From Rhytidiadelphus loreus (Eukaryota; Streptophyta; Bryopsida; Hypnales; Hylocomiaceae): DNA of 64,000 nucleotides. The position numbers and the translations under genes are program-made. The DNA is taken from the NCBI GenBank assembly GCA_947034895.1, contig OX344763.1, forward strand, positions 30,875,025 to 30,939,024. The letters are read 5' to 3'. This document shows positions 2,411 through 41,162 of the stretch, piece by piece; within the stretch, counting starts at the first letter, position 1, and every line of letters starts with the position of its first letter. The notes beneath the pieces were generated by a model. That model was not told where the DNA came from. It saw only the letters and a program-made list of their open reading frames with translations, and did not search any database.

Positions 2411-2442
2411 TACAAAGGCCATATTCATTAAATTGAGACAAT
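2411..2442 (+). repeat. Left terminal inverted repeat with flanking TACA
   Basis: 2415-2442 matches the reverse complement of 20155-20182 without mismatch. After one mismatch (G/A) the match continues for TGG. TACA at 2411-2414 is the proposed target duplication. The word ATTAAATTGAGACAAT recurs inside at about 2492-2508, possibly as a subterminal repeat. Confidence 0.65.
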
Positions 2443-3213
2443 GTGGATTCTCATTTTAATCATCTTCCTAAATTTAGTATGTAGAAGAGTCCATTAAATT
2501 GAGACAATTCAAAAAATTGAGACCATAAACTGCTTGAAGAATAAAGAATTTGTACAAGTATAAGAAATTGGAGGACAAAAATAGTAGTGAAGGACGTTGA
2601 AAGGAGGGATTTTGGATGGGAAACTAGAACCATTTATAATAAGTGCTTAACTAAAATATCTAAGTAAATAGTTTGACATATAGTGAGGTAGAGATTTTTG
2701 AAATCATCCATGATAGAATACATTTGTACACCTAGCCTGATCAAAAACTACAATGTCAAAGTAAAGAATTTGACATATGCTTAGATAGAGAAGTTCATAA
2801 TTACTTTGTATAGAAAACATTAGTACTCATCGTGTTCCATAACAAATGTCATAGACAATAGAATTCCAATGAAGAACTTACAAAATACACAATACCATAC
2901 AAGAAATAAAAATAAAAATATATTATATTATACAACATCTATAACATCAAATTCTAAAATAATATAAAAAAAGATCAAAACAATGAACTAAAAGAATAAA
3001 AAAACTAAATCTATTTCATCTTCTCCACATGTTTTTTTCTAACAACTTTTTATTATATTTTTTTTTGCCCTAATCAAAGAAACTATCAACTTCTACAACT
3101 CTTTATAATTTATTTTTTTCCATATTTTTTTGTCATCCTCCCTAAAGTTAAGAAAATAACGTACAAACTCGCAAAACTCCTCATGATTTCCTATGCCTAC
3201 AAACTATTCATCT

Positions 3214-6062
3214 TCACTCCGAAGATACATTATTGCTTTCACCAGATACATATGCATCCACCGATGTCTGGATGATAGCAATTTGTATTTTGGGAATTCT
3301 AACTTTTGGATCAGAAGTGCCTTCTTTGAAACGTGGCTTCCAAGCAGTCATAATGCAGTCTGTATGCGTCCAACTCGGAGAGATAGCCTTATCCTCGCAC
3401 CAAGAATTCCCTTGTTTTGTGTCCCACCCAGCATATGTTTCTTCATTGGTGTGATGAAAAGACGTAGGTGTCCAATATTGAAGTTGAATCGAATTGACAT
3501 GACCTGGATCTGGATTAGGATTTGTTAAAGCCCGAGCAAGCCAAAATGGACGGAGGTCACCGTCAGCGGGGCGCACAACAACTAAGTAACCTGCATATAC
3601 ATCACGGCCAATACGAAATGAAGGAGGTGGACGATCACGCCTACGACCAACAAAAGGTGCATCTTCTGCAAACTCCTCACGCATCGTACCATCATCTAGG
3701 TATTGGTCTTCCACCTCATCAGCAACACAAGAATTTGGCCAAAATCCATGCTGCAATGTCTCATGTACCACAAGCGGAGCATTGAGAGCACTTCTCACAC
3801 CTTCCCAATATTTCCGCACCGGCTCATTCTTCCTCCTAAACTCGCCAGATAAGTCTTGATTTCCCATTGCCCCCCACAATGCAATGTACCCATCTAAACC
3901 CTTGCAAATCTCATCAAAGCAACGCATTTGTTGCGGTGGCAAAGGTAGAGGACTACCCCTCGGTACTTTAGGGTGCCCATCTATTGTCTCCTTCCACAAG
4001 CGAATCCCCCCACCCTCTTTCGGCAACCAATCAACATCGGTACAAAGGATCTTGTACTGCATCAATGGCCACCCATTGGAATCCTTATAAAATTTAAACT
4101 GTTGCGCTTGAAAATGACCCTGTAGAGAATCATCGCCTGTATGCAAATACCCGTCCACAAATCGCTTAAAATCAGGAACCTCCTCAATGAGATGAGGAAT
4201 TACGGGTTGTGTTTCACAATCCATGAAAGACTTCATCAACCTTGGAAGTGTGGGGTAGTCATTCGTCTTCAATTTAGTGCTCCAACGACCAAATAGAGCA
4301 TCAATGTCCTCATGAGTGTGTCCAACAATGAGGAAATTAATGTATATCTCTCGAAAAATAGCTCTATAGACAAGAAGAGAACAGAATGCAAAAACCCACC
4401 GATTCTTGTTGTCGCCAGAAGCATTGTCAAGCTGAAGAGTCAATGTTGGAGGAAGAGGTTGAGCTTCCTCCAATACTTCAGGGGGGGACCCGAGAGAGTC
4501 CGTACAAATCTCTGAACCTCTGTCAAAGCCTCTGTCAGTTCAGAACGCTCTCCTCCTACAAACAATTGACGAGATGAATGCTTCGGTTGGGACTCTAGAT
4601 CTCGCAATAATTTTGCAATGGACCCAATAGTATGGTTGGAGTCTGTTGGGAATATGTCCAAGCCATAGTGTGCATATCGCACATCTCCATGACCATGAGC
4701 AATCATGCCTGTAACAGCGACAGGCATCTTCATGAAAGAATCATTTCCCTTACTCTTGTGCGAGTAATGAGGGGAAGCAGTCTTTGAGTGATCCATCTTG
4801 TCATGGATTATAGTCAAAACCTTGTCAGGATACATCTCAGACATTGAACGGTTTCCATAGTACAAGTCCCTATGCGCCTTTTGCCCCGATAGGTGCACTC
4901 TCAATTTGTTAGACCACACGTCTTGCGCTCGTGAATGTGGAGTGCAAGCACTCTTAAGTTGCCTATATCTATCGCAGGTTCCACAACGAGAAAAACTATC
5001 TCCTCTAGCCTTTGGAGCATACTCTGGAAAAGATTGACGACGTATGTTGCTCAATCCACTAGCCGAAATATTTTGCAATTGAAGTGAGGAATTGACATTG
5101 TTAATCTGTGGCAACTTGTCCTTCCAACGAAATGCAGACGGTAGGACCATGGAGGGGACTTTCTCTCCAGACTCAAGGGTCCTCGATTTGTGAGGCATCG
5201 TGTCCGCTTCATTCTCCACTAACAATCGAAGAGTTGCTGTTGCTTGCAAAGTGTGTGTCCGAGGTTTTTTCATTCCAAGGTTGCCATGATGCTCCGGTTT
5301 CTGGTCATCTTTTGCCATCTTCTTGTATCTATAAAAGGTAGCCTTCGATACTCCATGGATGGCGCACCAAGCAACCGAACAAATTTCATGGTTTGCCAAG
5401 GTAATCATGTCCCTTCCATTGGAATCAGTGTGGGTTTGCTTGTGCACATCAAGCAGACGTGACTTGCGCCAGAACACTCCACCATCAATATGAAGTAGAG
5501 ACCGAACAGCTTGAATCTGACCACGTGGAAATGGTTGCAAGCAATTCTTCTGGCAACATTTCATACTAGAAACATCAGCAATTGCTTGCTCTGTGAGGAG
5601 GGCTTCTTTCTTCGGGAGATTGGTAGGCTCAGTCCTCTCACGTGAGCTTTCATAGGAACGAACTCTAGTCCGAACACGCCGCCTCGAACCATTTGAAGAG
5701 ACTGCAGTATTGAAGAGATGCGTTTGTTCGTGGTCATATAAGCTGGCACCATTAAGGTAGACCCTGGAAATGTGCCAGGAGTGCATGGACCACATCCACT
5801 CCGACGGAACATCTGCCTCACACAAAGACTCTGCAATTTGAATTGCAACCCGGTCATCACCGAGTGGCTGCCCGTCCATGTCAATGATGAGATCTGCATC
5901 AACATTATGACAAATCCCTTTTGCCACCTCTACCCCCTCCTCATTTCTGAGTGTGACGCATTTTGTATACCAAGAAGCTCGAGGAAATCCCTCGCAGGCT
6001 GCGACACCCGGCGGCAAAGTTGGCATTGGAATTGTAAACTCGTTGGCATCTGGAGTATCCAT
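3214..6062 (-). CDS. DUF7869-family protein, DDE-transposase-like, one frameshift
   Basis: Two overlapping minus-strand frames (6062-4440 and about 4478-3214) read as one protein of about 949 residues if one C is added to the run of seven C at 4481-4487; the total then divides exactly by three. From the N terminus I see a KCCQKNC cysteine cluster (about residue 167), a helix-turn-helix-like GVSKATFYRYKK, a second cysteine pair CGTCDRYRQLKSAC (about 357), IIHDKMDHSK (about 419), TLQLDNASGDNKNR (about 545) and VGHTHEDID (about 584). The last two are hallmarks of the DUF7869 family of eukaryotic repeat proteins. The spaced acids in IIHDKMD, QLDN and THEDID resemble the D, D and E of an RNase H-fold transposase; that role is inferred. 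The ATG at 6062 lies just downstream of the palindrome array, in divergent orientation to the ParB-like gene. The frameshift may be a real mutation or a homopolymer assembly error. An intron is less likely because the two frames join without loss. Confidence 0.75.
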
Positions 6063-6104
6063 TCTGCGCGTGAAAGAAAAAAAATTAATTCATACTATTA
6101 TGAA

Positions 6105-6726
6105 TATCCTCGAGTCGAGGATAATAAATAAGTAGAACACACTGACAAAACAGGGAGCAAAGCAACCTCAGTTGGAGGGTAAAATTGTATACCATTTTGG
6201 AGTAGGTAGTAGGAGTAAGAAAACAAAATGTATCTTCGATTCGAAGATACCTGGCGGACAAGATTGAGAGATAATATGTATTCCCACAGTCGACATTGGA
6301 GTGTCACACTTATTATGTACATGAACTCTATATATCAATTCAAATGTCAATGGATGACTATGTTTGTCTATGGTTATCATTCATATTCTATGTATGTATG
6401 TGATTATCCTCGGGTCGAAGATAATCTCGGTGCGTGTTGGAAATTATCCTCGGGTCGAGGATAATCTCGGTGCGTGTTGGAAATTATCCTCGGGTTGAGG
6501 ATAATCTCGGTGCGTGTTGGAAATTATTCTTGGATGAAAGATAATCTTCATGCATGTTTCAGATTATCCTCGACCCGAGGATAATTTCCAACACGCACCG
6601 AGATTATCTTCGACCCGAGGATAATCTCCAACACGCACCGAGATTATCCTCGAAACGAGGATAACCTGCATGCATGTTTTTGAATATCTATTCATGTTTG
6701 TGGTTATCCTCAACCCGAGGATAACC
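6105..6726. repeat. Palindrome array 1, 40-bp period with strand switch
   Basis: Two single palindromes (6105-6123, 6231-6251) are followed by palindromes starting at 6403, 6443, 6483, 6523 (decayed), 6563, 6603 and 6643, exactly 40 bp apart, and one more near 6702. The arms are TTATCCTCG-type and CGAGGATAA-type. In the first half the spacer reads CTCGGTGCGTGTTGGAA; from 6586 on it is the reverse complement TTCCAACACGCACCGAG, so the array folds back on itself around 6554. It lies 40-660 bp upstream of the DUF7869 start codon, where promoter or leader sequence is expected. Confidence 0.9.
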
Positions 6727-7641
6727 TCCATGCATATATGTGATAGACAAATTTATAGTTCCGACATTTACGGCGCAAGAATCGGTTGTTCATTCTTGAA
6801 CATAACATAGACAGGACAACATTTGAGATTTGACACCTGAATTCCCTAAACTCCAAGAATCAGAGGACTACGTAATACTACATGTAACTTTGCTTAACAC
6901 TGACGACCAAGAGCAGAAATCTAGCATTCAGTGAGAAGGGGAGAAGGGAAATAGAGAAACTTACGATAACCCGTGCAAAACTAAGCAAATTAGTCACATA
7001 AACTTGTAAATGCACTGCAAAAACATATGTTCAAAGGCCGTGCGGTAGCAATGTCTGCAAGAGGCCGCGGAGGAGGGAATACTGGAAAACACGAGAGAGG
7101 AAATGAGGTGCTCGAGGAAGAGAGTCGATGCACACACTAGCGGAAGAATGTGAGTGGGAGAATGTGAGCGGGAAATTTAATAGTATTTGAAATCTTCATA
7201 ATTTTGAGGGCGTAGGGGAGAAGTACCTCCTCGAATTATGGGGCCGTTGACATTATCATCCCCCAAATAATGACAATGATGTGGAATGTGATGGAAATTT
7301 TTATGAATAGAAATGGGATCTGACGTAGCCGATCTTTTTTAGATTTTAATAGGGGGATTTGTACTTTGTGGAATTTTTGGCAGTGACCTTTTTTCCAAAA
7401 ATGTGGAAATATTCTTTGTAGTCACAGCGGAATTTCGGATTTGGCAAATTTGGCAATTCATACACCACCCACCAACCAACCTTTTTTTTAAATACTTTAT
7501 TCTTATGTCTGATTTAGATGAATGTTTACGGTAGGTAACCACAGTAATTTGGCACATGTTGGGTCCAATGTGTATTGGCTATAAACAGAATTGTACGTAA
7601 TGAAAGCTTTCAATAGGGAATGAAGTTTGGACTTTCGGATT

Positions 7642-7738
7642 TTGGGGTTTAGGGTTTAGGGTTTAGGATTTAGGGTTTAGGGTTTAGGGTTTATGATGTA
7701 GGGTTTTGGGTGTAGGGTTCAGGGTTTAAGGTTTAGGA
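7642..7738. repeat. Interstitial telomere-type TTTAGGG tract
   Basis: About a dozen units of TTTAGGG run in tandem, first nearly perfect and then with single-base variants (TTTATGATG, TTTTGGGTG, TTCAGGG). TTTAGGG is the usual plant telomere repeat. A second very short copy lies at 20745-20759. Such tracts also arise in promoters as telo-box-like sequence, so neither a former telomere nor a repair scar is proven. Confidence 0.85.
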
Positions 7739-9879
7739 GCAATAGCAAAGTCTTCAACAAATGTAAATTACATGCTCATGAATTCAATGTTCATTGAATT
7801 CATTCACGAATATGTTCATGAATTCATCTTGATTTTGCAAATGATATTCAAAATTCACATTTATTTCTGAAATTCCAATATCCTGAAATTGAAAGATGCT
7901 TCTTATATAAATTTTATTAGGATTCTTGAAATTTTGAAATAATAGCAGGCAATAAAACATAATGCCTTTTTATTTTGAATATTACTAGTTTCAATTAATA
8001 AAGGATCTCCAATGTTGTGGACATCTAAATGACCGTACATGTTCAAAATTACCCAAAATCTTACATGGTACTTTTGAATCTGTAATTTAATTTTATAAAA
8101 AAAATATAGAACTTTGAGCTTCTGTTTTGAAAACAAAGAACAATGTACAATTCTGAATTTTTTAACATTTAATTCTATAAAATGCGGTACTTGTTATGTT
8201 TTATTTTCCATAAATGTTGAAACTCATTCTAAGAAATTTGCATTTACGTATGAGCACATCAAATTCTTGCTATTTGTCTTGTACAATACATTAGCAACTA
8301 ATGAAAAATGAAGGTAATTATGTTGTTTTTATTATGTAACTAAAATCATAAGAGCTATGAAATTTTAAAGAGGATAAGTATTGGAGATCAACAACATATT
8401 GTACTAGTTAAATTTTTGTATAAATTTGAAAGAATTATGATTCTTCAGTGTAATATATAATTTTGTTCAATTGTTTTTTAAATTAGAATGATTTGGATGA
8501 AAAAACATAAAGTTTGCAGAACACTATGAAGAACTACAATGAAAAAAAACTAAACTTTTATGAAGATAAAAGAAATAAAAAGCACATGCTTAGAATATTT
8601 CAAAAAGAAAGTATGAGAACTAGAACTATACAAAGTAGGATCCATACTCATTTTTAAAAGCTTAATAATTATGTGAAGTGTACAAAATGTAGAGACCCAT
8701 GTTCTAAGAAGTCGTCATGTCCACCTACATGGCATCCCAAACCATGATTTGGAGCATAATTGGCTTCAAATTAGACTACTTTGTTAGTACATTGAAATGA
8801 ATGATGGACTTTCCATTCATTTGCTACCAATCATTATTTTTAACTCCATCATGGTTTAGAACCTTGAACGACTTCAATGTCACATAAATAATCTTCATGA
8901 GAGGTTCACCTCCTAGAAATGAATGTATTATAATGTATCCCATACAATGACTCGCTAAATTGTATAAAAAATTAGTACTCTACAAGTTTTAGAAATTCTT
9001 TTATTACATCTTCTGTACTTCAAACACATAATTATTCAAAAAGTGCAAGTTATGTATGAAATAATAGTTCTTTAAACTACAAAACATGAATACTTAATTT
9101 TAATGTTTTGTTGATTTACCAAACAAATGGCACCAAATTTATTCACTTAAGAATCCTAAATTCTAGTTCAAAATATTTTGAACTTCTACATTTTCTTTCT
9201 TGTGCCATTTAATAGTTATTCCATACCTTTTTAAATGTTTAATCTTAAAAAAAATGGTGTTTAGACCTTTATAGATTACGATCATCTAAAAAGTAAAAGT
9301 TCTTTATAATTTAAAAAAAATAGCATAGAAAAAACTAAATTATTTATTATTTAATTATTTTTTTATTCATGACAATACTTTAGAAGTTTGGTTACATTTA
9401 CTAAACTTTGTATTTAGGGTAAAATTTTAGTATATGGAATGCTCAAAATCTTACGTAAGCCTTGAATAGGGTTTGAAATTTGGAAATTGTGTTTTGGTGT
9501 ATAAGTTCTAAAGATGCTTAGATTCATTTGAAACTTACAATGAATTCCAAGAAGCTAAAAAAAAAACCTTGGTTATTTAGAGTGTTAGGTACATTACAAA
9601 TTAGAAATACTATTGATTAAATTTTATTCAAATTTGTTTAAATTAGAAAATATAACCCCCCCCAATGGATATGGAATTTTTTCCGAAATTCTTGAAATAA
9701 GGAAATGTCTACATTACGTGAAAAAGTCTAAAAGAGATAAATTATGGGATGATAAGAAATGAAACACACTTTGCACAATTGCTTCATACATGTCTTCAAC
9801 ATCTCTTAGTCCCATTACGTGGACTCTTTACTTTCTTTAATCCCTAAACAACTGCTAAGCCATTTCTTGATAAATGAAT

Positions 9880-10462
9880 GAGAAACAATCTTGCCGTACT
9901 GGACACAAATGTAACTATTCATCTTCCAAAATTTATGGTGAAAAATAAAGATCAACTACAATAGTTTGTCTTCCAATTAGAGTTTCAACTATAATCTGTT
10001 GATGTTTCATTTTTTTAAGCCAACAATTTGTACGGTGACAAAACAAATGATTTCCATGATGACCGTCCAGACATTCAAAGGTTAATTTTTTTTTTTTAAA
10101 TTGGAACATTTAGAGAGCCCAAATGTCATGGGGTTGAATTTGTGGTTGAATTTTCAATTCTTCAAAATCAAATGCTACTTTGGAAAATAGGGACCTACAA
10201 AAATTGAATTGGATGAAGTTCTCTTACATTTTGTAGACCATGCATAATGCCAGACCATTTTTTGGTTGATGAATGACAGAAATCTCTTTGTGTCGGACAA
10301 AAATGCAACTATTCATCCTCCAAAATTTGAGTGCAAAGGAAAGATCATCTACAGTACTTTCTCTTCATATGAGAACTTTATCATTTTTTTAAACAAACAA
10401 TTCGCATGGTGAAAAAATAGATGATTTTCATTATGACCCACATGCTGTTCAAGGGTTCAAGA
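9880..10462. repeat. Diverged direct repeat of about 190 bp
   Basis: Sequence 9880-10090 recurs at 10268-10462. Both begin TGAATGA, pass through GGACA-AAATG-AACTATTCATC and CAAAATTT, and end in ATGATTT(C/T)CAT-ATGACC. Neither copy is open. The right copy stops just before the GC-rich region. Confidence 0.6.
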
Positions 10463-10739
10463 CACCTACGTGTATAGGACTTGAAGCTTAGAAGAAATAG
10501 GTTCTGGGGAGGCAAGTTTGGCGACATACATTCCGCAAGTTTGGCGACATACACTCCTGTAGGGTAAAAGGAGTAGGATTGGGAAGGACCGAAGCTGGGG
10601 AAGGAGGTTCGGGGAAGGAGGGTTGGAACCAGGGTTGGTCCGTCGTCCCTTTCCTCCGAAAGTTTTCCAATTTTTTTTTACGAACATTTTTCCAACTTCC
10701 GGCGTGGGTGATTCTCCGTCTTCAATCGCGTTTTGTTTT

Positions 10740-11165
10740 TGTAGCTTTGGTTTGGGGCGCGCGGGGTTTCAGGCGCGGTTTAGTTCAGTCTTCTTGAGGC
10801 GCGGTGTCTTCCAGCTTCAATCCAACTTCAGGCGCGGTTTACTTCCAGTTTGAGGCGCGGTGTTTTCAGCTTTAGGCGCGGTGTCTTTCGAGTTGAGGGT
10901 GCGGTTTCTTTGCAGTTTGAGGCGCGGTGTTTTCAGCTTCAGGCGCGGAGTTTTCGACATTCATGCGCGCAAGTTTTCAACTTGAGGCGTGGAGTTTTCA
11001 ACTTCAGACGCGGGGTTTTCGATCTTCAAGCGTGGGGGTTTCTCGATTCGTGCACGGGAGTTGCACGCAGCAGTGTAAGTTTCCAGCTCCAGCTGCAGCA
11101 CGAGTTTCCAGCTCCAGTTTCAGCGTGACTTTCCAGCTCCAGTTTCAACGTGAGTTTCCATCTTC
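10740..11165. repeat. GC-rich minisatellite island upstream of the ParB-like gene
   Basis: The composition changes sharply from AT-rich to GC- and CpG-rich. About a dozen imperfect units of 20-30 bp share GAGGCGCGGTGTTTTCAGC-like words between 10740 and 11050. Next come 3.3 copies of a 25-bp unit (AGTTTCCAGCTCCAG plus a variable end) at about 11076-11160. The frames here are open only because of the repeat. The position about 1.3 kb upstream of the ParB-like start suggests a promoter or leader region, which is inferred. Confidence 0.65.
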
Positions 11166-11660
11166 CCAATATTTTGCACCAAGTTTTCTGATTTATTCTT
11201 TGTGTATGTAGTTATTTTTTTTGTTCTTTGGGCATGTAGTTTGCAATTATTCATATTCTTGTTTCAAATCATTGTTGTGTTTTCAAATTGTTTATCTTGT
11301 TCCAATTTCCATGCCAGTGTTAGTTGCTTAGGTTTTAGAATTCGGGTTTGTGATTTTTGTTCATTTGTCATTGCATTAGGGTTTAGGCAGAGTCGACTAC
11401 ATCTGGAAGTGTTGAAATTTTTTTGAAGCATTCGATAATTTGCTGCAGGAAGTGTGCAGGAGGTGAGGAACTTTTCAATTTCTGTGTCTACCACTGCTCT
11501 TGGTTTGAATGCGTGATATCATTTTTGTTTCTATGCACGTTATAATTCAATCAAGATTGTAATCTATGTTTGCATTCTACATGAGCACAGATGATTAGTA
11601 TTAGAAATAGGGTTTCTGACTTCATTTTCTTCAGTTATTCTTCTTTGAACAATAGAAATC

Positions 11661-12411
11661 ATCTTCGGGTCGAAGATAATCATCTTCGACCCGAAGATAA
11701 CCTACATGAACACAACTAATGAAATACAAAAACCACAAAACTAATAAAATACAGAAATTGACGGTCGGCCCCTGGGTAAATAACCACAAAACTAACACAA
11801 ATAAAGAACACATGAGCTAAATAAGAACCAATTATCCTCGGACCGAGGATAAATAGTACCAAAAAAGTACAAACAGAATACACCAACACTAATTACGAAC
11901 CATTTATCCTCGGTCCGAGGATAAATGACAACGAAAACAAGTAAAATAAAATACACTAGAACTCAAGAAGAACCATTTATCCTCGGACCGAGGATAAACG
12001 GCAACGAAGACAACCCAAATAGAATACACCAACACTAATTAAGAACCATTTATCCTCGGTCCGAGGATAAATGACAACAAAAACAAGTCAAATAAAATAC
12101 ACTAAAACTCAAGAAGAACCATTTATCCTCGGACCGAGGATAAACGGCAACGAAGACAACACAATAAAAATAAACCAAACCAAATTAAAAATCAATTATC
12201 CTCGGTCCGAGGATAAATATAAATCCAAGATCATAGTTACCAATCTTAGTTAATGTGATACTATATATCCAGGATCGTACTTATCAATTATGAATATAGT
12301 CTGCTCATTCTGCACTGCTCTGGATATCATGTGCAGCCTGCTTTGATAATGGTCCACTCGAAATGCATTAATCCGGAATTCTCTAATCTATTATCTTCGC
12401 CTCGAAGATAA
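11661..12411. repeat. Palindrome array 2, 73-bp period, alternating centre
   Basis: Two adjacent TCTTCG-type palindromes (11661-11677, 11682-11699) precede six 21-bp palindromes starting at 11832, 11904, 11977, 12050, 12123 and 12196, 72-73 bp apart. A final one lies at 12391-12411. In the six-copy array the central base alternates strictly A, T, A, T, A, T between perfect 10-bp arms (TTATCCTCGG / CCGAGGATAA). The spacers also alternate between two sequence types, so the true repeat is a dimer of about 146 bp. The array ends 56 bp before the ParB-like start codon. Confidence 0.92.
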
Positions 12412-12466
12412 ATATCAAATTATAATTCTAATCATAGTGGTTTACTATGCTCAGATACATATCAAC

Positions 12467-15400
12467 ATGGTGGCTGAGTCTGAATACGACTACTCGGCTA
12501 CTCTCCCATTCATTGAGCCTTTCACAAAATGGGTGGAAGAGGAGCCCTTCATATCGGAGATGCCAGAGCTATACGGCAAGCTCTGGCAATTCAAAGCCGT
12601 CGTCGAGTCCTGGACATTCGGTGTGAACCAGTCCAAGGATTACGTGTACCTTCGTCACCGAGAGAAGGATACAGGGATGTACGTGAATTGGAACTTAAGT
12701 GAGAAGGTCGCCCTCATTGAGAACCATCAGGACAAGTACCTTGTCATCACTCTGCAAGGAATCGACAACGCAGGAATCGAAACGAAACATACTCATTCAA
12801 TCGTCTGCCATGAAGACGACCCTATGGGTGTTTTTGACTTCGACAACCTCATCGTCGACTTGCACTCGGGAAACCTTGATGCCTTGGCAACAGACTTTCA
12901 TACAAGATACCACCCATGGCATAAAAAGAACGCCAAGGTGACGTCGAGAAAAGTCGGATACATGTTTCATAAGCTGACAGAGGAAGCTAATAAACATGTA
13001 CAGAAAGGGCCTGCTCGAGCGAGTCAAGGTCGTGGTCAACAAAGGCCGGATAATGCCGATGAGACGAGATCAGCGTCTGGTATGCGCGGCCGCACAGGGA
13101 GTAGAGGAAGTGGGAGAGGAACGGCCCGCGCGCAGGCCCAGAAGAGAAAGAACCCGGACATGAGTACATGTGAGCCTGGTGAGAAACGCAAGAAACCCGT
13201 GACGGACAGTCGTCCTACTACCGCCGGCAGTTCAGGTTCGATACTCACGAACGTGAATACCCAGAAGCCAGCCGGTACGCAGCCAATCGAGAAACACGAA
13301 GTTGCAGCTGCATATCAGTCGGAATTTTGGAAGAAAAATGGCAAGTGCTTCATTTTTCATCCACATGTATTCTCTGTTAATATCAAGCAATGCTTCCTCG
13401 CCCCAGAAAGATACATAATCCGGAAGCTTGAAATGAAATTGGTGGATGAGCAAAAGGAGACTCTCATTCATCTTGGTTCAGAGCAGCAAAGGCAGAAAAT
13501 TTGCTTGACCCCTATGGACGCCAATAAGAAGCTTTTGAAGGAGTGTCCTAAGGATTGGGATTCCATCAAAAATGGTGGCTTCTACATAATTGACGGCCAA
13601 CATAGTGTCACCGCAGCCAAAATGCTTCAACAAGGCGGATGCTGCGAGACACGCAAGGTCGAGTTGCAGACATGGGAGGCTGTGATCGTCTGGACCAGAG
13701 ACCCGACACAACTCACAGATATTTCGAAGTGGTACAATGCCTCCAACCACCTCGTTCATAGTCAGCCAACATGGGGGAATCAAATATCCGCATGTAGGCA
13801 GGTTTGGAAAGCACTTAAGCGGCCTACCAACACAGAAAGCGAGGGGCTGGTGAGAGGAAATAAAGCAGTTTACAACGTCGCAGCGTATAAGGTACTCCTC
13901 TTTTATCTTTGAGGCGAAGATAAAATTTACGTGCATGCTCTAGTTGTCCTCACGTATTCTTATAGAGTGCTGCAATTTCTGACTATTGATTATGTGGTCT
14001 CGAAAGTAGTTATCCTCGGGCCGAGGATAATTGTTTGAAAATCTGTATATCTTCTAAGTGAACTAGTATGCATGTTGATTCCGTGAATATCTGTTTGAGC
14101 AGGAATTTGTGGACGGTGTCATGATTCGATACGGAAGCATCAACCCGGACAAGGAGGGTGCTCAAGTCAAGTTGGCGTCCGATGTCAAAAATGAAATTCG
14201 AATAATAACCTTGGCCGATGAGACCTATCAGATGTGGGAGGAGTTCCTCACAAAGCACACTGATGGATCGCTGATTGATCCCGTGTCACGGAAATCCTAC
14301 AACAGCGCGAAGACCTTCAACGCAAAGAACTTCTCGCTCAAAAGGGAGTTCTTCAAGCACATGGGACACTTCACGGACAAAGATCTCAAGGATTATGTCC
14401 TCCATCTGCTTGGGAGAACAGAGGGACGCACACGAGACTATCCAATGGTCTTTGTGGGGGCGGCAAAGATCCTGTGCGAGGACAACTATAAAGCCGAGCA
14501 CTGGGTAGAGCGTAGGAAGCGTAAGAAAGTCATCGTGGAGGAGTTCATGGCCCTCGATAAGTCCTTGAAATTCAAGGACAGAAATGGGGATGTCATCGAT
14601 GTGAAGTGGAGGCAATGGAAGCTGGACAACTTCTTTTCGTCGGCATCGTGGGATTTCCTCCTCACCGCAATACCCAACCAATTCTTCGTAAAACGCCTTA
14701 CCAACGAGGCGAAGAAGAAGACGGCCATAGACTACAAGGACAATCAAAAATTGTCAATGGTCTATCCCATGTTCAAGACCTTCTTGAAGATGAAGAAGCG
14801 AGTGGAGCCATCGGGAGGAGATGTGTTTATCCGAGGCCACCAATGCTACCCCAAGGTCTGGTGACGACCCACATATGGCCCTACGTCAACAGAGAACTTG
14901 GCCTCGCTGTGATTGATTTCCGAATCCTCCCGAGGCCAAATCCGGGATCCGGTGACAGTCCACCTTGCTTGCCATTACTAAATTTTTTGGATGATCACCT
15001 GAGGCCGGTGTTGTCTACTCCAGACGTATGGTTATGGATTGTGGGGAGTTCATATGACATGGACGCGGCCAAGAAATTTGCCGCATCGAAGATGTTAGGG
15101 TACGAAGTCAGGGTGTCCACCTACCTGCCAAGTAAGGCTGAGAGGTTGGACAACTTGACCAACCGAGCAGTGCCACCCCCCGTGAAGCTCCTTTTCGTCA
15201 TGAAGAAACGCAATGACGGGGAGCCAAAATACAAGGAGGCAGTGAAGAAGGTATATTGCACCGATGACATACCTTACTACACTGATTTCCATAAGAACAC
15301 GGAGGCAAAATATAGGGTCCATCCGAGTGAGCTAAGGATGGAGTTCTATATCGACATTCTTCAGAGTTTCGCCGTGACAGGAGAGAACGTCATCGGCGTT

Positions 15401-17158
15401 TACACAGGCTCCAAGTTCGTGATCGCTGCAAAGGTGCGGCTCTATGATTTATCTTCGACTCGAAGATAATTGCTTAGGATCTCTTTCTGGTGTATTATTA
15501 TGTTTGATTGTTCTGTTGCATGCATCTTTATCTGTTGTTGTGTTATCTTCGGGTCGAAGATAGTTTCCTAGGATGGATCATTATAGTGTGAAAAAAAGTA
15601 TTGACAACTGCTTGTTGTATTGTAGATGTATGGCCTCTATTACTATAGCCTTACTGAGAGGCATGCTTCACAAAAGCTTCGAGATATGGCGACTTATGGC
15701 AGTAAATTAGACATGAACGATTTTTGCCATGAGAACTCGCCATATCTTCCTGGTTACGTGCGTCCGCGTAACCTTGAAACTCCAGATCTGGACTCGGATT
15801 CCACACCCTCCGTCGATCGCAACGTGGAAGCCCCACGACAATTTCCTACTGATGAGGGGGCTGCCAACCTTGGGATCGATGAATTTGGGACAAACACGAA
15901 CGTTGTCCAAGGAGGAAATGTGGAAATCAACGCAGAGGACTTCCACGTAGGGAGACGCGGGCTAGAATCAGTGTCGAAGGACAAGGAAGAGTTAGATGCA
16001 GTCGCACGCAAGAAGAAGAAGAAGACGGCAAGGAAGCCCGTGGAGGGCTTTATACCGGACATCATCATCAGCGACGTGGAGGACACGTATTCGGATTTGG
16101 AAGACTTCAACTACGATGGTCCGACTGATGATGGTGCGGGAACCTCTAAGGGAAGCCAAGGAGAACCCTCACTTGTAGAGCCTCAACCTCCTCGTTATTC
16201 CATGTCCGGGGATGCTACAGATCCAATTCAAGTTCCTCTTCGTCCTGTGAAGCAGGAACTTAAGGATTTTTGGAGGCAAAGAGAGGAGAGGAAGGCCTTC
16301 AAGAGGGCTGAGGAGGCAAGAAGAAGGGCTGACGAGCTGGCGGAGAAGGAAGCGTTGAAGAAGGAACTTGAGAAATTGCGTGAAGAGAATGTTTCTCTCA
16401 GAACGCGATCACAAGATCCCTCTACTTCTCAACCTAGCCAACTTGATGCGCATGACGTTGGTGGTGCTTCAGAAGCCACTGCTCACCAGTCCACTGATCT
16501 GAGCTCTGAGGGTTATCTTCGAGGCGAAGATGATCCTCTACCTGCCGCCCAAGAGGATATTGCTCCCCCTTCTCCTCCTCCAATGGAACAAGAGCAGGGA
16601 TCCTCTCTTCCAGTTGATAGAGCAAATCAACAGATTCAAGAAGAGATTGCTCCCCTTGGAACTGGGACAGATGGAGCTAATACTGCAGTGGATTATCCTC
16701 GAGGCGAGGATAATCTAAGCCAGCCCCCAGCATTGGAGGTGCAAGCGGAGTCGGTCCTTGGAACCGGGATAGAGGGAGCTCATAGTGCAGTGGATTATCC
16801 TCGAAGCAAGGATAATCCAAGCCAGCTCCCTACATTGGAGACTCCAACGGAGTCGGTTCTTGGAGCAGGGAATGAGGGAGCTGATAGGGCAGTGGATTAT
16901 CCTCGAGGCGAGGATAATTTGAGGCAGTCCCCTACTGTGGAGGCGCAAGCGGAGTCGGTCCCGGAGACCCAAGAGGAGGGTGATGTTGTACCGGATCTTG
17001 TCCCCCCTCCGACTGAGCCGCGTGCACCGGAGACGGAGATAGAATTCGAAAATCCCCCAAACGACGACGAAGAGATTGTCGACTACGGGGATTATTTGGA
17101 TGATGAGTTCGGCCAGGTACACTCTCGTCCATCCTCAGACCCCTACGATATTTCATGA
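12467..17158 (+). CDS. ParB/sulfiredoxin-fold plus methyltransferase-like fusion protein
   Basis: Three exons are predicted: 12467-13891, 14103-15433 and 15626-17158, with GT-AG introns that keep phase 0. Adding one base in exon 2 (TGG-TG at about 14861) makes it exactly 444 codons, giving about 1,429 residues. Residues 1-170 are an unrecognised domain. Residues 185-245 are RG-rich with a basic KRKKP nuclear signal. Residues about 320-450 hold a ParB/Srx-like domain with FYIIDGQHS (D376). Exon 2 ends with a fold resembling beta-class N6/N4 methyltransferases: LAVIDFRIL takes the place of the D/NPPY strand, and HPSELRMEF...VIGVYTGSKFVIAAK aligns with the HPxQKP...DPFxGSGTT..AA region. Key residues of both motifs are missing, so activity is doubtful. 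ParB-methylase fusions are known from bacteria and phages. Exon 3 is acidic, with a coiled coil and in-frame palindromes. The ATG at 12467 follows a good 3' splice site, so an upstream leader exon is possible. Confidence 0.75.
13892..14102 (+). other. Intron 1 of the ParB-like gene, two palindromes
   Basis: The intron runs from GTACTCCTC to TGTTTGAGCAG, 211 bp, and joins ...AAYK to EFVDG without changing frame. It holds a palindrome at 13903-13923, starting 11 nt after the donor, and another at 14010-14030. Confidence 0.8.
15434..15625 (+). other. Intron 2 of the ParB-like gene, two palindromes
   Basis: The intron runs from GTGCGGCTC to TGTATTGTAG, 192 bp, and joins ...FVIAAK to MYGLYYY in frame, inside the methyltransferase-like region. 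Palindromes lie at 15449-15469, 15 nt after the donor, and at 15543-15562. Confidence 0.8.
16513..16533 (+). repeat. In-frame palindrome in exon 3, YLRGEDD
   Basis: Arms TTATCTTCG and CGAAGAT(G/A)A flank AGG. The element is read as Tyr-Leu-Arg-Gly-Glu-Asp-Asp in the ParB-like protein. It is a single copy, about 180 bp before the 102-bp repeats. Confidence 0.85.
16657..16965 (+). repeat. 102-bp coding tandem repeat, one palindrome per unit
   Basis: Three 34-codon units each read GxGxxGAxxAVDYPRGEDN followed by a Pro/Glu-rich stretch ending in ESV. Their palindromes start at 16693, 16795 and 16897, exactly 102 bp apart. The first and third palindromes are perfect apart from the centre. The second has changed to DYPRSKDN and lost symmetry at two positions. 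The frame used (TAT CCT CGA) avoids the TAA stop present in one of the other two frames. Confidence 0.9.
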
Positions 17159-17696
17159 GTCTGTCTAATGTGATATGATGGATGTTTGTTTTGTCTTCCA
17201 TCATGTTCATGTTTCTAGTGAGAGACTCTCATGTCCATTCCTTCTGTCTGACAGGAGGGAGTGTACAGTCTCTGATTGTGAAGCGTGGAAGAACTGCCAC
17301 TCTGTGACTGCGTTGTAGCATAGTGTAGATACCGCAACGGGCTGTAGTTGGTATTTGTATACAATCGGCTAGAGATCAACAAAACCGTTAGACCGGGTGT
17401 ATCAATAATTATTTTGAAATAAATATATCTCAAACTTCTCTTCAATGCGTGTAGTGTCTAATGAATTGATATTGCCCATGTTTGTGCCCAGCGCGGACAA
17501 CTTAGAAGTGTGCACCGCCCGTTGGCACTCAAACAATCACTTAACGGAGGGGTTCTGTAGTCGCTTAGTGGGGTTCCATGTTTTTCTTCGTTTTATGGGT
17601 CGCCTGATTCTGCCTTTCAACAGGTAACTACATCTCTTTCGTGTTGTGTTTGATCAGGTAGTAACGGCAGGTCGAAAAAACAGAGTGCCGCGGAGT
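17159..17696. other. Spacer between the ParB-like and FCP1-like genes
   Basis: This 538-bp stretch holds the probable 3' untranslated region of the ParB-like gene and the leader of the next gene. An open frame of 60 codons (17445-17627) resembles nothing I know. A possible 3' splice site TTTGATCAG at 17649-17657 is in phase with the FCP1-like frame, so a leader exon may exist upstream. Confidence 0.5.
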
Positions 17697-18479
17697 ATGT
17701 TCTCGTTAGTGGTCCAACCGCGACAGAAGTGGTTGAATATCGTGTTCGATTTGAACGGACTGCTGTGTGAGAGCCAGGGTCAGGGGCCCCATAAGAAGAA
17801 AAAACATTACACAGTCCGAGATAATGTATTCTCCCATCGAACCCCAACCCTCATTGGGACGAAGGCCGTCTTCGTTCGTCCCAATGTGCGCGAGTTCTTA
17901 GACGAGGTTTCAAAGATTTCGAACCGCGTCGTAGTTTGGAGCTCCATGTTCAAGAAGACGGTGGAGCCCGTTGCCAGTTTCCTCTTCCAGAACTGCAAGG
18001 CTCCCTACCACATCCTAGGTCAGGACAACTGCAAGAGGGTAGAAACCTTGGAAGGGAAATTTCTTCATCAGGCTGGGAGTCCGTGGAAGACTCTGCTCTT
18101 CAAAGTGCTTGATGAAGAATTATTCCTGGACCCTCAGGATCCCAACTCCTTCAACAAGGACAATACCATTCTCATCGATGATTCTCTGCAAAAGGGCATC
18201 CTCAATGAGAACGGGAATTGCATATACCTTGAGAGTTGGAACCCGTACATGCGTGGAGACAATGTGCTCGTCGGCACTCTCATTCCGTGGCTGAAGAAAC
18301 TACACGAAGAGTGTCCACTCGGACGCCTACGTGAGTTCGTAGATCGGAACCGCATAGGTGTGGCGCCCTTGGTCGCATCAGACGATCAAGCCAATTATAT
18401 ATTAGATGGGATGAGGATGTCCGTCAAGGCATTCGAGTCGCGATTCGTGTTGCGGGGGATGAATTTAGTGATTGAATAA
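17697..18479 (+). CDS. FCP1-like HAD-family phosphatase domain protein
   Basis: The 260-residue protein has the FCP1/NLI-interacting-factor fold. The motif I region is LNIVFDLNGLLCE (D18), motif II is VVVWSSMF (about residues 75-82), there is a basic and aromatic middle part, and the motif IV region is TILIDDS (about 157-163). FCP1-type enzymes dephosphorylate Ser/Thr in proteins such as the RNA polymerase II tail, using D-x-D. Here the second Asp is Asn (DLNG). To my knowledge plants have an FCP1-like branch with DLNG/DVNG at this site, so the protein may have been captured from a host gene; that origin is inferred. Activity may be reduced. The first in-frame ATG is 17697; reading upstream stays open to about 17628. 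The gene has the same orientation as the ParB-like gene and lies 538 bp downstream of it. Confidence 0.8.
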   Translation: MFSLVVQPRQKWLNIVFDLNGLLCESQGQGPHKKKKHYTVRDNVFSHRTPTLIGTKAVFVRPNVREFLDEVSKISNRVVVWSSMFKKTVEPVASFLFQNCKAPYHILGQDNCKRVETLEGKFLHQAGSPWKTLLFKVLDEELFLDPQDPNSFNKDNTILIDDSLQKGILNENGNCIYLESWNPYMRGDNVLVGTLIPWLKKLHEECPLGRLREFVDRNRIGVAPLVASDDQANYILDGMRMSVKAFESRFVLRGMNLVIE

Positions 18480-18673
18480 GAGAGATGAAGGGAGAAATAG
18501 ACTTCTCAGTGTCTCAGTCAATCATAGAACTCGTTGTACATTATTCTTGTGAATACGGATTTTTTTGTACATTTCATTTTTGTGAATTAGTAAAATTTTG
18601 AAATTTAATCAAGATTTCTGGCCTCTTTGGGTTGTATTGTTTTGTTCAACATGTGTTTGTCTTCCATGTTGAG

Positions 18674-18732
18674 TTATCTTTGGGTCGAGGATAATTGTGG
18701 AGGGATGTGTGTTATCTTTGGGTCGAGGATAA
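18674..18732 (+). repeat. Pair of palindromes 38 bp apart
   Basis: Two copies (18674-18694 and 18712-18732) have arms TTATCTTTG and CGAGGATAA around GGT, followed by TTGTGG. They are locally duplicated with their flanks (GGGATGTGTG). Both arms differ from perfect symmetry at the same two places, so the pair arose by tandem duplication. They lie just before a good 3' splice site at 18767. Confidence 0.85.
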
Positions 18733-18767
18733 TTGTGGGGGATGTGTGCTCACTTCTATTGCTATAG

Positions 18768-19691
18768 GTCGGAGGATCCGTTCTACACTTTCTCCAACAG
18801 AGGGAACCACTGACGAGGAGCTTACTGTCTGGATCGGACGTGTCACTTTCAATGAGGTCCGGCTCGATTGGAGGGAGCTTCGTGCCGTCCTCCTATTCTA
18901 AGCCTTACCTCCTAGGCTCGGCCACCGATGCAGCTTCGGCGGCCATCGACTTCTCAAAGGGGAATGTGGAGGAAGGCGTGGTAGATAGCCCACCTAGTCG
19001 GGGTCTCGTGAGGACACCGATTTGCTCACCGTCGCCAATGAAGAGGGCCAGCTCCACCCCTAGTCGATTGCGTTCACAGTCGCCGACTTTGCGAACCCCA
19101 AACACACCGCACAGGAAATTGTATGCGGATGACGAAGAGCGGGGTATGGATCCTCGTCTCGAGGATGGAGTATTGTTGCCGGTGACAATCTGTCATCAGG
19201 CTGTCCAGAGCGTGGAGTTGAATGTGGATCCCAAGGTTGGGGATCGGATCAATGAGGTACCGTTGGGTGCATGCAGAGCACAACAGGTTCCACGCCTCGT
19301 AGAGATTCCTATCTCGTTCCCCTCAAAATCCGTGGGCGGAGTATCTTTGCCTTTGGCTGTACCTATTTCCCGCTGAACGACTCTTCGAGACATACGGCGG
19401 ACAAATTACACTCGATCGACAACAACTGCCGATCCGTACATAAGCACTGTGAATAGATCGATACCACTCCCGCCTCCTCGAGGTTCTAGGTCTCTTTCCA
19501 ATACCGAGATTCCGCGACGTGAACGAAAGCGGAAGAGAGAGGCCAAGGATTTAATGATGATGGGGATGTTCAATACTTTCAGTAAAGACAGTGGATCACC
19601 CAAGCCTTCTCGACGCGAGGATATCTTCAGAGGATTGGCCAAGTTGAAAGCCAAGGAGGCAGCCAAGGAGGCAACAAATAGCAGTTCTTAA
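18768..19691 (+). CDS. Unrecognised basic low-complexity protein, one in-frame TGA
   Basis: After a strong 3' splice site (TTCTATTGCTATAG, ending 18767) one frame stays open to the TAA at 19689-19691 except for a single TGA at 19374-19376. The product is Ser/Pro/Arg-rich in the first half and ends in a charged segment with KRKREAK and KLKAKEAAKEA, suggesting a nuclear, DNA- or RNA-associated protein. DPRLEDG (palindrome at 19150-19166) and SRREDI (near 19611) resemble the YPRGEDN peptide encoded by palindromes in the ParB-like gene. The upstream exon was not identified; it could belong to a separate gene or to an alternative 3' end of the FCP1-like gene. The first in-frame ATG is 18852. I recognise no family. 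Confidence 0.5.
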
Positions 19692-20154
19692 TCCAAGAAC
19701 GATGGTTTGCCGAGTGATCCTAGTTCAGAGTGGTCTAATTTTTGTTGAAGGATCATTACTATTAATAGAATATTCATTCATATACAAAAAACAATTTTTA
19801 GTAAGGGTGAGTGCTCTCTGCGCACATAGCCTTTATATTTTGACACAAGACATTCAATCATTAGATTTAGCAAGATTAGATATATCGGGATTTCATTTCC
19901 TAGGAAGTGAAGTATATAGAGAAGTGAGAGAAGTTGATTCAAGTAAATTCATGTTCTTCAATGTAAAGGGACACACTTTTATAAATATTACATCTTATTA
20001 CACAACTCATGTGGAATTGCATTTTGCACGTTCACATTTCTTAATTGTTTTGGTGTGGGATTGCTCTAAGCCTTCTAACGACATGCCTATTTTTATCTTC
20101 GCCTTCAACAATTTATCTTTGAATGGAGGAGCCTTAAGTTCTCAAAATGACCAT

Positions 20155-20186
20155 ATTGTCTCAATTTAATGAATATGGCCTTTACA
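20155..20186 (-). repeat. Right terminal inverted repeat with flanking TACA
   Basis: Exact inverse of the left repeat over 28-29 bp, ending in ATGGCCTT followed by TACA at 20183-20186. It lies about 460 bp beyond the last gene of the unit. Confidence 0.65.
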
Positions 20187-32169: not shown

Positions 32170-33047
32170 ATGAGAACAAAATGACTTGGATCATATAACA
32201 TTAGTTATACTATGCCTTTTGCAAGAAGATCCAAGAGAAGATCACTTATTCTTTAACTATTAAAAAAAAAAAACTTCAAATTTAATTATGTTGCCATCGA
32301 AGCCTAAATGTCACATCTCAAAGTTGCATGCCATTGACCACATTAGCCATTGGATGTCTTGTATGGCATGGTAAACTACAACTAAGGTAGCATCACCCAT
32401 AAGCATGATTGTCTCCATGGACGTGACCTATTTATGTACCCATATCTGTGGTTAAAGGTTCCATGATTGGCAACAATGGAAAAGTGCTTGTGATGGGTGC
32501 ATTGTGCAACGGGTTATGGTGTCAATGGATTTGGAGATAAGTTCATTGAATGACGGATCTTAGTACTACAATGCATTAATGAAAAAAATGGGAAGCTGAA
32601 TGGGGAGGTGGTTTAATTTAATTTGTATGGTGGCCATGGGTCTCTTAATAACATTTAAACGATCAATCTGTACTGATCAAGGGCGGAATGGAAGCAAATA
32701 TGGGATGCACCCTGTCAGTTTTACATGCCATTCCTGCCATTATTTGCATCTGAAAGTGGCGACTAGGTATTACTAGGCATCGACTGAAGCATCCAAAAGT
32801 GGCGACTGGGAAATAAAAGCATGTAGTTTTAGGTTACATCTAGAGCAATTTGGTGATTAAAGACTTTGGTTTAAGGTTAATTGTGTATGTGGCTCATTAA
32901 TTACAAGCATTCACTGAAGCTTCAACGGCGAAGCGGCTCCTTGGTAATGGTATCATGAAATCAACATCCTCTCAAATTTTGTATGCATGGGAGAACGACT
33001 TACTTCGTGAGAGAGAAGTTATGGCATGCTTGGGAGTGTAGTTCACT
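32170..33047. other. Spacer with no gene seen
   Basis: Mixed-composition sequence right of the hAT-like MITE. A short repeated phrase (AGTGGCGACT, near 32754 and 32797) is the only structure I noticed. It may include the 5' flank of the pogo-type pseudogene. Confidence 0.45.
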
Positions 33048-33116
33048 GTGATTGGAAGAAGTTGGCGCCTGCTATACGACTTACACATTTGTGCAATTTT
33101 AACCAAACAAGTAGTG

Positions 33117-35327
33117 ATGTTTACAACCAATCGAGAAGCACCACGTTACTTTGAGAATGTGACAGACGACATTGTACATGAGATGTGGACCATAGAACTA
33201 CAGTATGGTAGAAGCGTGGCATGGTCTCCCTATCAACAGTGCCACAACACTCAAGAAATGAACGTGCATCATAGAATTCGTAGACCTATGGCGACTCTAC
33301 CCGAATCTGCAAGCTTCCACAATTGGCGGGGAACTGGGCAAAATGGACTGTGGAGTCCAGATGTTACACGCGACACTGTTCAACTAGTGGAGGTGGGGAG
33401 CTGCGGAGCTGTCCCTAACTCAGGCGATGCTGCAGGCGTACACACCAACGGGGGAGGGCTTCGGAGCGGCACTATGCAATTGGTGCAGGTGGGGAGCGCC
33501 AGAACAGTCATCGACTTAGGCGATGCTGTAGGCGTACACGCAATCACAAGAGCACTTCGGAAGGCTTCAGTTCCACCGTCGACTTCCGTGGTTGCAACTG
33601 TTGTAGGTGCGCCTCCAATTCGCAGCTTGAAGAGGTGCCTCACGGGGCAGTGGTCTGACTCCCAGCTTGTTGCTGTGGTGGCTGCATTCGACACTAGCTG
33701 CACAATTGCTAGTACAACAAGGAATTTCGAGATTCCACAATCTTCCCTCAGGGACCACATTTATGGGAGGGTAACGAAACGGAAGAAGGGGCGTCAAGGC
33801 GTCCTCTCTTTGGAAGAAGAATCAACACTTGTGAAATGGATGTTGGAGATGTAAGACCATGTGCACCCAATTTGTATTCTAGAACTAAAGAGAAAGGTGA
33901 CTGAGATTACACAAGAATGTTGGACGTCCTTTAAGGACGGAATCTCTGGACACGAATGGTTAAGATGGTTTAGAAACTGACACCTAGAACTCACCTTGAG
34001 ATCTCTACAAGGGTTGGAGGAAGGCCGTGCAAGGGGTTTAAATCCCAGTAGTTTTGCATCCTTCTATGATAACCTACAAAGATCATATGACCGCAATGGC
34101 TACTTGCCCTCTCACATCTGGAATGCTGATGAAACAGGAGCTCAAGCAAGGAGGAATGGAGGAGGGACTCTCATTTTTGCAAGACGTGGGAGTAGATCTG
34201 TGCATACAACAATTCCAAATATCAAAGAGCACCTCACCGTCCTCTCATGCGTGAATGCAATAGGATAGTACATCTCAAACTTCTATATTTTTAAAGGTAA
34301 ACGAAAGGTGAGGAATTACATTGTGAACTGTGAACCCAAGGCTTGCATGGCAATGCAACCAAATGGGTGGATGACAACTTTTCTATTTTCTACATGGATC
34401 ACTCATTTCATTACTATAGTGCAAGAGAGGTATGGTATCTCAGAGGAAAATAGACACCTGCTAGTTCTAGATGGTTACGGCTCCCATGTGACACTTGAAG
34501 TGGTGTAGAAGGCCAAATCAGCAGGCCTTAACATCATCATGCTTCCTAGCCACACAAGCCATAGGTTACAGCCGCTCGACGTCAGTATTTTCAAGCCATT
34601 CAAAGTAGCATTCAGAGGTTTCAGAGATAGGTGGAGCATTCAAAACAAGGGAAGAAGGGTGAGAAAAGACGAACTAGCAGAATGGATGTCCATGGCATTG
34701 AGTAGGGCACTTATAGCATCAAAGATCATGAAAGGATTTTTGGCCACTGGGATCTAGCCCCTCCGACCATTAACGATGGATCTTCACATGTCTCCAAGTC
34801 AAAGTTATGTTGATGCTTGTGTAGAGGACGAGGCAGACAAAGAGAAGTAGGAGGATGCATCACCAAGGGTTTCACAACCATAGGAAATGTGTGTTCTTGA
34901 AACGCAGGGAGGAAGGCCACAATATTTCGTGGCGTCAGAATTAGCATCGGAGGTCATAGGCGATGACAGCAGCATCGAAACTAACGGAGAGGGAGAAGGC
35001 AACACTTCTCAACAAAATCTCTTCCCCTTGCCTCTCATGCAAATGACTAGGCGCGAAAAAACACAAGATGGGGAGCCTCTCATCGATTATTCAAAATCGA
35101 TCCTCATGACGTCAGACGACTACATTCAGGCCATGATGGCAAAAGCTGCAAGAAAAGAAGCAGTGGCCAAGGAGCGAGAAGAGCGCAAGATGCAAGTTGA
35201 ATAGAGGAAGGTCGAACGAGAACAACAAAAGTCATAGAAGGAAGCTGAGAAGATCATGCGATGCATTCAAGCCGAGTAGAAGAAAGCGGATCAAGAACGA
35301 GAGTGAGCTAGAAAAGCAACGGATTGA
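33117..35327 (+). pseudogene. pogo-type (Tc1/mariner) transposase pseudogene
   Basis: One reading frame runs from about 33117 to 35327 with 12 stop codons (starting at 33852, 33978, 34266, 34506, 34755, 34848, 34881, 35202, 35235, 35277, 35304 and 35325) and no net frameshift. It encodes a 33-residue tandem repeat (about 33370-33560), a CENP-B/psq-like helix-turn-helix (LTGQWSDSQLVAVVAAF and onward, about 33640-33850), and the DDE_1 catalytic core. The core motifs are HIWNADETG (first D, near 34120), HLLVLDGYGSH (second D, near 34470) and SHTSHRLQPLDVSIFKPF (third D, near 34570). A Lys/Glu/Arg-rich tail follows. I did not find its terminal repeats with confidence. Confidence 0.85.
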
Positions 35328-40936: not shown

Positions 40937-41162
40937 TTAAGGGGCTAAACCCTGACAAAATCCAGAACAGAGGCAGTATGGATGGACAGAACGAGAGGAT
41001 GAGAAACAGTGGATGAAACACCGGACGAGAGCCTCTCTTCTTCCTTATCCGAACACTCCTGATAACCTCTTCTTCACCCCTGTTTCTCAGTTCGGGTTCC
41101 AGAACTTCATTGCAGCAAGAATTCGAGCAATTGAGATTCCTCGCATTGCTGCCAATTTCGCA

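Follow-up and report, generated by a model that had tools for sequence, protein, structure and literature searches.

The 64,000-nucleotide stretch of the Rhytidiadelphus loreus genome analyzed here (the window) contains, near its left end, a 17.8-kb element bounded by terminal inverted repeats. It carries a gene for a DUF7869 transposase, a three-exon gene for a ParB/methyltransferase-like protein, a frame with an FCP1/NIF-like domain, a gene for a basic protein, and three arrays of a short palindrome whose probable role as a DNA address is considered below. The interval 2415–20182 is one mobile unit. It is a copy of a large transposon that has been recently active and has reached a high copy number in the genome.

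Ends, copies and mobility of the element

The inverted-repeat arms at 2414–2446 and 20151–20183 are 33 nucleotides long and 97% complementary. Since their outermost A/T pair is part of a duplicated TACA, the element proper spans 2415–20182 (17,768 bp), and the comparison with other copies placed TACA on both sides of it. The original prediction, made from the letters of this stretch, had described a 28–29-bp inverted repeat with a possible TACA duplication. Both were confirmed, and the genes were found where that prediction had placed them.

The host genome (407 Mb in 489 contigs) was searched with the exact 28-bp terminus, which was found 133 times in the forward and 140 times in the reverse orientation, 273 places in the whole genome; the reversed control gave 0 + 0. 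The pairing of termini was analyzed on the first 100 of these 273 places, and two inward-facing termini within 100 kb were taken as a pair. Among the places listed there were 43 such pairs (22 spanning 17–19 kb, 10 spanning 19–30 kb, and 11 spanning more than 30 kb), and 14 places remained unpaired. The pairs wider than 30 kb may be chance neighbors or copies carrying inserts. With the shortest pair at 17.6 kb and none below 17 kb, the places listed include no short repeat bounded by these exact termini; the explanation that the ends belong to a small widespread repeat without the genes was rejected. Parts of the element recurred as well. The left 90 bp gave at least 40 scored matches (of 406 candidates) with 99–100% identity, exon 1 of the ParB/methyltransferase-like gene at least 85 matches when 83 of 1,067 candidates were scored (78–100% apart from pieces), and the C-terminal DUF7869 frame at least 95 matches of 1,646 candidates (94–100%).

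Stretches of 20 kb were fetched for ten other copies, together with 8 kb of an eleventh (L037). Both exact ends were in view in five of the ten, and in four the right end lay beyond the fetched stretch. The other copies share the ends, the gene order, and the 4-bp duplications with the window copy. These duplications were perfect in all six copies with both exact ends in view, the window copy included (TACA, TAAA, TAAA, TATA, ATGA, and CGTA); the fourth base was A in 6/6 and the first was T in 4/6. Terminal inverted repeats with duplications of constant length at independent sites identify the element as a DNA transposon of the terminal-inverted-repeat (TIR) type. The copy c3_709 stands against this observation, as it resembles the window over the left 1.37 kb alone and its right-end candidate is degenerate (4 mismatches) and has no matching duplication.

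One of the copies, c5_203, lies inside a transposase-like frame. When its flanks (C5:20341075–20341659 and C5:20322354–20322860) were joined with one ATGA, they formed a single frame of 408 amino acids (aa). Four paralogues (C3:70359644, C3:49219954, C3:3026038, and C2:621423) cover residues 1–359 across the junction without interruption at 90–91% and have one to four stop codons each elsewhere in the frame. These continuous frames stand in for an empty site, being paralogous and not orthologous to the interrupted one. A single mobile unit had been inferred in the original prediction, which proposed searching the genome with the terminal 28 bp for copies with the same ends, gene order, and 4-bp duplication, and looking for empty sites. 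The terminus count, the six duplications, and the interrupted frame bear this inference out.

The copies fall into three subfamilies, among them A (seven copies) and B (c4_63 and c1_767), and these are mosaic. Compared with the window over 2411–6199, over 12391–15472, and from 16874 onward, c1_767 was 98%, 82%, and 93% identical, and c4_63 94%, 81%, and 93%. The similarity between subfamilies shifts near palindromes, at about 6.1–6.2 kb (from 98 or 94% to about 75–80%) and at 16.87–16.90 kb (from 80% to 93%), which may reflect recombination at these repeats. Two copies in C5:46680933–46737324 (L019–L022) lie 36 kb apart and have an identical left flank; c5_4670 and c5_4673, with their common left flank, are probably one insertion duplicated within a segment.

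The transposase and the carried genes

A DDE-like DUF7869 protein had been proposed for the left part of the element. Its DUF7869 part was confirmed by the profile PF25273, which matched in two frames of the minus strand within 3214–6089 (E 2.2e-39 and 6.1e-5); in other copies, the match lies in open frames of up to 958 and 1003 aa. The aspartates D356, D359, D481, and D523 were invariant in 41 aligned transposase proteins. The search of the PDB with the transposase sequence returned one match, at chance level. The transposase (P0001) had 134 relatives at E ≤ 0.001; among the 120 of them listed, eight were named by species, three from Ceratodon purpureus and five from Physcomitrium patens, which are mosses. 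DUF7869 was not mentioned in the CC-licensed full text of PubMed Central.

According to the sections of PMC10741241 cited here, Sola elements encode DDD transposases, leave 4-bp duplications, may exceed 15 kb in size, and are known from a moss. The 4-bp duplications and invariant aspartates of the R. loreus element fit this superfamily, to which it is likened by description and not by sequence. The two also have terminal inverted repeats, large size, and occurrence in mosses in common, and they differ in that the accessory genes and palindrome arrays are outside the Sola account in those sections. The original prediction knew of no described plant transposon with this gene set. As far as those sections go, this stands for the gene set and the palindromes, but not for the class of the transposase, which is Sola-like.

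The central gene of the element had been predicted to encode a ParB/methyltransferase-like fusion, and the two halves fared differently. Exon 1 gave two weak profile hits only (DUF6551, E 0.064; phrog_1033, E 0.064) and one PDB match by sequence, at chance level; its structure model was too poor to use (mean pLDDT 36), and the ParB part remained weakly supported. The methyltransferase-like part was recovered as a predicted fold. The model of exon 2, built on 17 aligned sequences, had a pLDDT of 62.8 as a whole and a better one in its C-terminal half. It matched ten PDB entries at E ≤ 0.001, those listed being M1.HpyAVI (E 3.3e-5 for the best match) and MboIIA, with E values up to 9.8e-4 and TM-scores of 0.38–0.48 by target length. 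The C-terminal half of exon 2 has the predicted fold of the beta-class DNA methyltransferases, in common with M1.HpyAVI, MboIIA, and relatives of MTA1/METTL3.

The canonical motifs of beta-class methyltransferases are FxGxG (motif I) and DPPY (motif IV). The element family differs from the beta-class N6/N4 enzymes at both places, as located by topology: G-x-K was present at the place of motif I in 12/12 covering rows and D-x-R at that of motif IV in 14/14. These changes make catalysis by the domain doubtful. Exon 2 had 14 relatives at 40–58% identity, one of which represents 700 sequences. No relative was found by sequence in the PDB, and two peptide patterns found no bacterial relative in GTDB contigs.

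In each of the three subfamilies, the aligned copies have conserved GT and AG boundaries at introns 1 and 2. Exon 2 of the window copy lacks one nucleotide near 14849 that is present in seven of the nine other aligned copies. Exon 3 ends with a stop codon at 17156–17158, the alternative being a candidate splicing at 17116 to the FCP1-like frame.

This frame had been read as an FCP1-like phosphatase. The NIF/FCP1-like domain was detected by profile with E 4.1e-15 to 4.6e-15; it had 13 relatives at 40–71% identity and no PDB relative by sequence. The catalytic motif of FCP1/NIF phosphatases is DxDx(T/V), and DxNG replaces it in all 11 covering rows of the 13 aligned.

Selection on the carried genes was estimated by the NG86 method between subfamilies A and B. 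Frame-broken rows were excluded: the window copy, c4_63, and L037 for exon 2, L037 for the FCP-like domain, and L037 together with c1_767 (absent) for the basic protein. The ratio of nonsynonymous to synonymous substitution rates (dN/dS) was 0.10–0.13 for exon 1 and 0.10–0.11 for exon 2 (c1_767 only), with dS of about 0.7–1.0. It was 0.27–0.34 for exon 3. For the FCP-like domain it was 0.09–0.20 and for the basic protein 0.16–0.25 (c4_63 only), both with dS of about 0.1. Within subfamily A the ratios were higher (exon 3, 0.55–0.72; basic protein, 0.18–0.39), as expected with many decaying copies. These ratios indicate that the carried genes are under purifying selection.

Table 1. Features of the element in window coordinates.
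Feature	Position	Strand	Remarks
Target-site duplication, left (TACA)	2411..2414	.	From comparison of copies
Left terminal inverted repeat	2415..2446	+	273 exact genomic occurrences of its outermost 28 bp
DUF7869 transposase gene	3214..6062	-	Frame broken once, between 4440 and 4539
Palindrome array 1	6105..6723	.	40-bp repeats in core; upstream of the transposase start codon
Palindrome array 2	11660..12410	.	73-bp repeats in core; upstream of the ParB/methyltransferase-like gene
ParB/methyltransferase-like gene, exon 1	12467..13891	+	475 aa; weakly supported ParB-like motif
Intron 1	13892..14102	+	Two palindromes; GT-AG in 10/10 aligned copies
Exon 2	14103..15433	+	Predicted beta-class DNA-methyltransferase-like fold in the C-terminal half
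Intron 2	15434..15625	+	Two palindromes
Exon 3	15626..17158	+	Methyltransferase-like fold presumably continued; disordered/coiled region; 102-bp repeats encoding the palindrome in frame
FCP1/NIF-like domain frame	17658..18479	+	273 aa if read from a candidate acceptor; start codon uncertain
Palindrome array 3	18675..18731	.	Two sites in the window copy; upstream of the basic protein
Basic protein	18852..19691	+	279 aa from ATG in copies without the stop; in-frame stop at 19374-19376 in the window copy
Right terminal inverted repeat	20151..20182	-
Target-site duplication, right (TACA)	20183..20186	.	From comparison of copies

The palindrome and the dyads of related families

The palindrome TTATCYTCG-N3-CGARGATAA is a 21-bp dyad. 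Inside the element it occurs at 28 sites with at most one mismatch and at 30 with at most two, and the other 46 kb of the window contains 0, in agreement with the earlier view that this palindrome family is confined to the interval. Genome-wide, 2,893 exact sites were counted and the control gave 0. Among the first 88 distinct sites of these, 82 were located between paired exact termini (one such pair being 46 kb wide), three beside an unpaired terminus, and three at 2.20–2.23 Mb of C1, away from the listed termini.

Besides the three arrays, sites are present in both introns and, in frame, within the exon 3 repeats. Their number varies between copies: across the seven copies of subfamily A, the palindromes in the 73-bp part of array 2 range from 4 to 16 in number, and array 3 has between 1 and 8 of them among the copies that are complete in that region, with 8 in c4_63. 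Meanwhile, the sites themselves are conserved. In intron 1, the palindromes kept 43/46, 41/46, and 44/46 positions between subfamilies (89–96% identity), and the remainder kept 76/153, 84/153, and 111/153 (50–73%). The two arms also co-varied. At offset 5, complementary bases were found in 129 of 167 distinct sites, with 91 expected, and at offset 11 in 102, with 67.5 expected.

A family-specific address would predict different palindromes in different families. This was tested on the 2 kb adjoining the transposase start at four loci representing three families. The frame interrupted by c5_203 is from a family other than that of the element, with 37% identity over 98 aa to the transposase of the element, and the search with this frame gave further families at about 55% and 38%. 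In family 2 (two loci), the dyad CGGGA-N4-TCCCG was found in 4 and 6 exact copies, or in 8 and 9 if up to two mismatches are allowed, which in L039 lie roughly 275–500 bp before the start codon. Family 3 has CTGGA-N4-TCCAG within CATCTGGA...TCCAGATG (of the CATCTGGA-N4-TCCAGATG type), with 4 exact sites, or 9 when two mismatches are tolerated, about 240–670 bp before the start. Family 4 has five sites of TCGGC-N5-GCCGA, two of them inside the frame running towards the transposase match and three before that frame.

None of the dyads of families 2–4 was found in the 17.8-kb element, and the dyad of the element was found in none of the four loci. Resampling the sequences to first order, with 30 trials each, produced no such dyad, and the five right flanks of copies contained no recurrent dyad. 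Each of the three sampled families has a recurrent palindrome of its own near the transposase start, as if marking its own DNA.

The palindrome as a putative address of the family

We consider it probable (about 0.6) that the palindrome is a DNA address bound by an element-encoded protein, in a Sola-like 17.8-kb DNA transposon with long-kept accessory genes; this is argued from sequence comparison and analogy. The element, of the autonomous type, would move by cut-and-paste with its Sola-like DDD/E DUF7869 transposase and leave 4-bp duplications, and the accessory genes would be long-kept parts of it and not passing cargo. Binding of the palindrome by a protein of the element is likely. The protein, most likely the ParB/methyltransferase-like one, would bind in dimeric form, both at the gene promoters of the element and within the introns, and would in this way recognize its own family. 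The purpose might be escape from silencing, as with VANC for VANDAL, or control of the element's own transcription, anti-silencing being the most interesting of the possible purposes. We infer the identity of the binding protein and the effect of binding largely by analogy. The copies have an excess of transitions at CHG (101 per 601 sites) and CG (98 per 778) compared with CHH (90 per 2,367), which fits methylated, silenced copies.

The analogy is with the VANDAL transposons of Arabidopsis, which within the literature cited, in the sections considered, are the only ones with sequence-specific anti-silencing (PMC5735166). In those sections, the motifs of VANDAL21 precede the transposase gene and are also present in introns, as tandem repeats that vary between copies; VANC binding is specific to the transposable element, and the binding protein VANC21 has peptide repeats. 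The R. loreus element has the same layout, in which short, family-specific motifs form copy-variable arrays ahead of the transposase gene and within introns; a second gene likewise has tandem peptide repeats. It differs in that its motif is a 21-bp dyad, which is also present inside coding repeats, and in that VANDALs, in the sections of PMC13317346 cited, are non-TIR Mutator-like elements, whereas the moss element has terminal inverted repeats and 4-bp duplications. DUF1985, the VANC domain, gave no Pfam hit up to E 5 in exon 1 or in the exon 2 relatives P0002, P0003, P0010, and P0011, and none up to E 1 in exon 3. As the element is not a VANDAL in these respects, the likeness concerns how it works and not what it is.

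A more far-reaching version would be that moss DUF7869 transposons independently evolved an anti-silencing self-recognition, in which a catalytically altered, methyltransferase-like protein reads, and co-evolves with, the palindrome of its own family and does not cross-activate others. We put this forward tentatively, at somewhat less than an even chance. If true, there would be a second case of anti-silencing, in another plant lineage and based on a different class of transposase, a different protein fold, and a dyadic motif. Self-recognition as a means against silencing would then have evolved repeatedly among selfish elements, and a new source of sequence-specific DNA-binding proteins would be at hand, with targets that can already be read from the sequence.

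Several results weigh against an address read by an element protein. The CGs within palindromes have not clearly decayed less than others (transitions at 3/70 vs 9/287 in non-coding and 2/70 vs 103/2,296 in coding sequence), and the idea that they are protected from decay was dropped. The ParB assignment of the favored binding protein is, as already mentioned, weak. The sites are mutual copies, so the count of co-varying arms overstates the number of independent events. When the part of the window beyond the element was divided into 44 overlapping tiles of 2 kb, five of them also had a dyad recurring at least three times, with the arms AAAAT, AAAAA, TTTTT, or ATATG. The other families, finally, were recognized by the N-terminal region only, over the 98 aa already given for one of them.

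The alternative that survives best, although we regard it as unlikely, is that the transposase itself binds the palindromes, for end pairing or transposition. Some plant transposons have subterminal motifs bound by the transposase, and family-specific dyads adjoining the transposase gene would suit a co-evolving transposase. However, the palindromes are not in a subterminal position: in the window copy, the outermost of them (up to one mismatch allowed) are separated from the left and right ends by 3.7 and 1.5 kb, respectively, and many sites are interior, in introns and coding repeats. The transposase sides of subfamilies A and B are 94–98% alike in DNA and give no leverage on whether the two change together.

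We give still less credence to the palindromes acting as RNA hairpins in transcripts or introns and not as DNA sites. Each of them folds as a 10-bp stem with a 3-nucleotide loop, and non-complementary pairs lean to G-U on the transcribed strand (left CA/TG 11/5, right 18/26; Fisher p 0.08), but this tendency falls short of significance, and the sites cannot be counted as independent. Sites are also found in arrays upstream of start codons and in tandem arrays between genes, and a DNA dyad explains the symmetry equally well.

About as improbable is an ordinary Sola-type transposon with functionless captured pieces of host genes and palindromes spread by tandem duplication only. The DDD transposases, 4-bp duplications, possible size above 15 kb, and moss occurrence given for Sola in the cited sections of PMC10741241 would agree with it. 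It is opposed by the purifying selection indicated for every carried frame tested, by relatives of exon 2 and the FCP-like domain at 40–71% in other sequence sets, and by palindromes that are kept above the rest of intron 1 and are different in other families. An origin as a fragment of an endogenous giant virus, or of a virus like it, can practically be dismissed: the large size, the several genes, and the methyltransferase-like and phosphatase-like proteins would suit it, but the precise terminal inverted repeats and duplications and the spliced genes do not, and IMG/VR gave no relative of the transposase or exon 2 with two to six short peptide patterns.

Some further sequences of the window should be mentioned. 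TTTAGGG-like repeats are located at 7627–7738, where they separate the transposase promoter of the element from its AT-rich spacer, and runs of a similar kind are present in L038 and L039. Outside the element, the palindrome ATTGTCCCCCGAGGGGACAAT occurs twice (47496–47516 and 48727–48747), 1,231 bp apart. The open frame at 33042–33854 (+) had no Pfam hit; it contains a stretch that we take to resemble a pogo/psq-type helix-turn-helix, perhaps a transposon remnant. Another open frame, at 40956–41567 (+), presumably resembles a plastid ribosomal protein S9 precursor.

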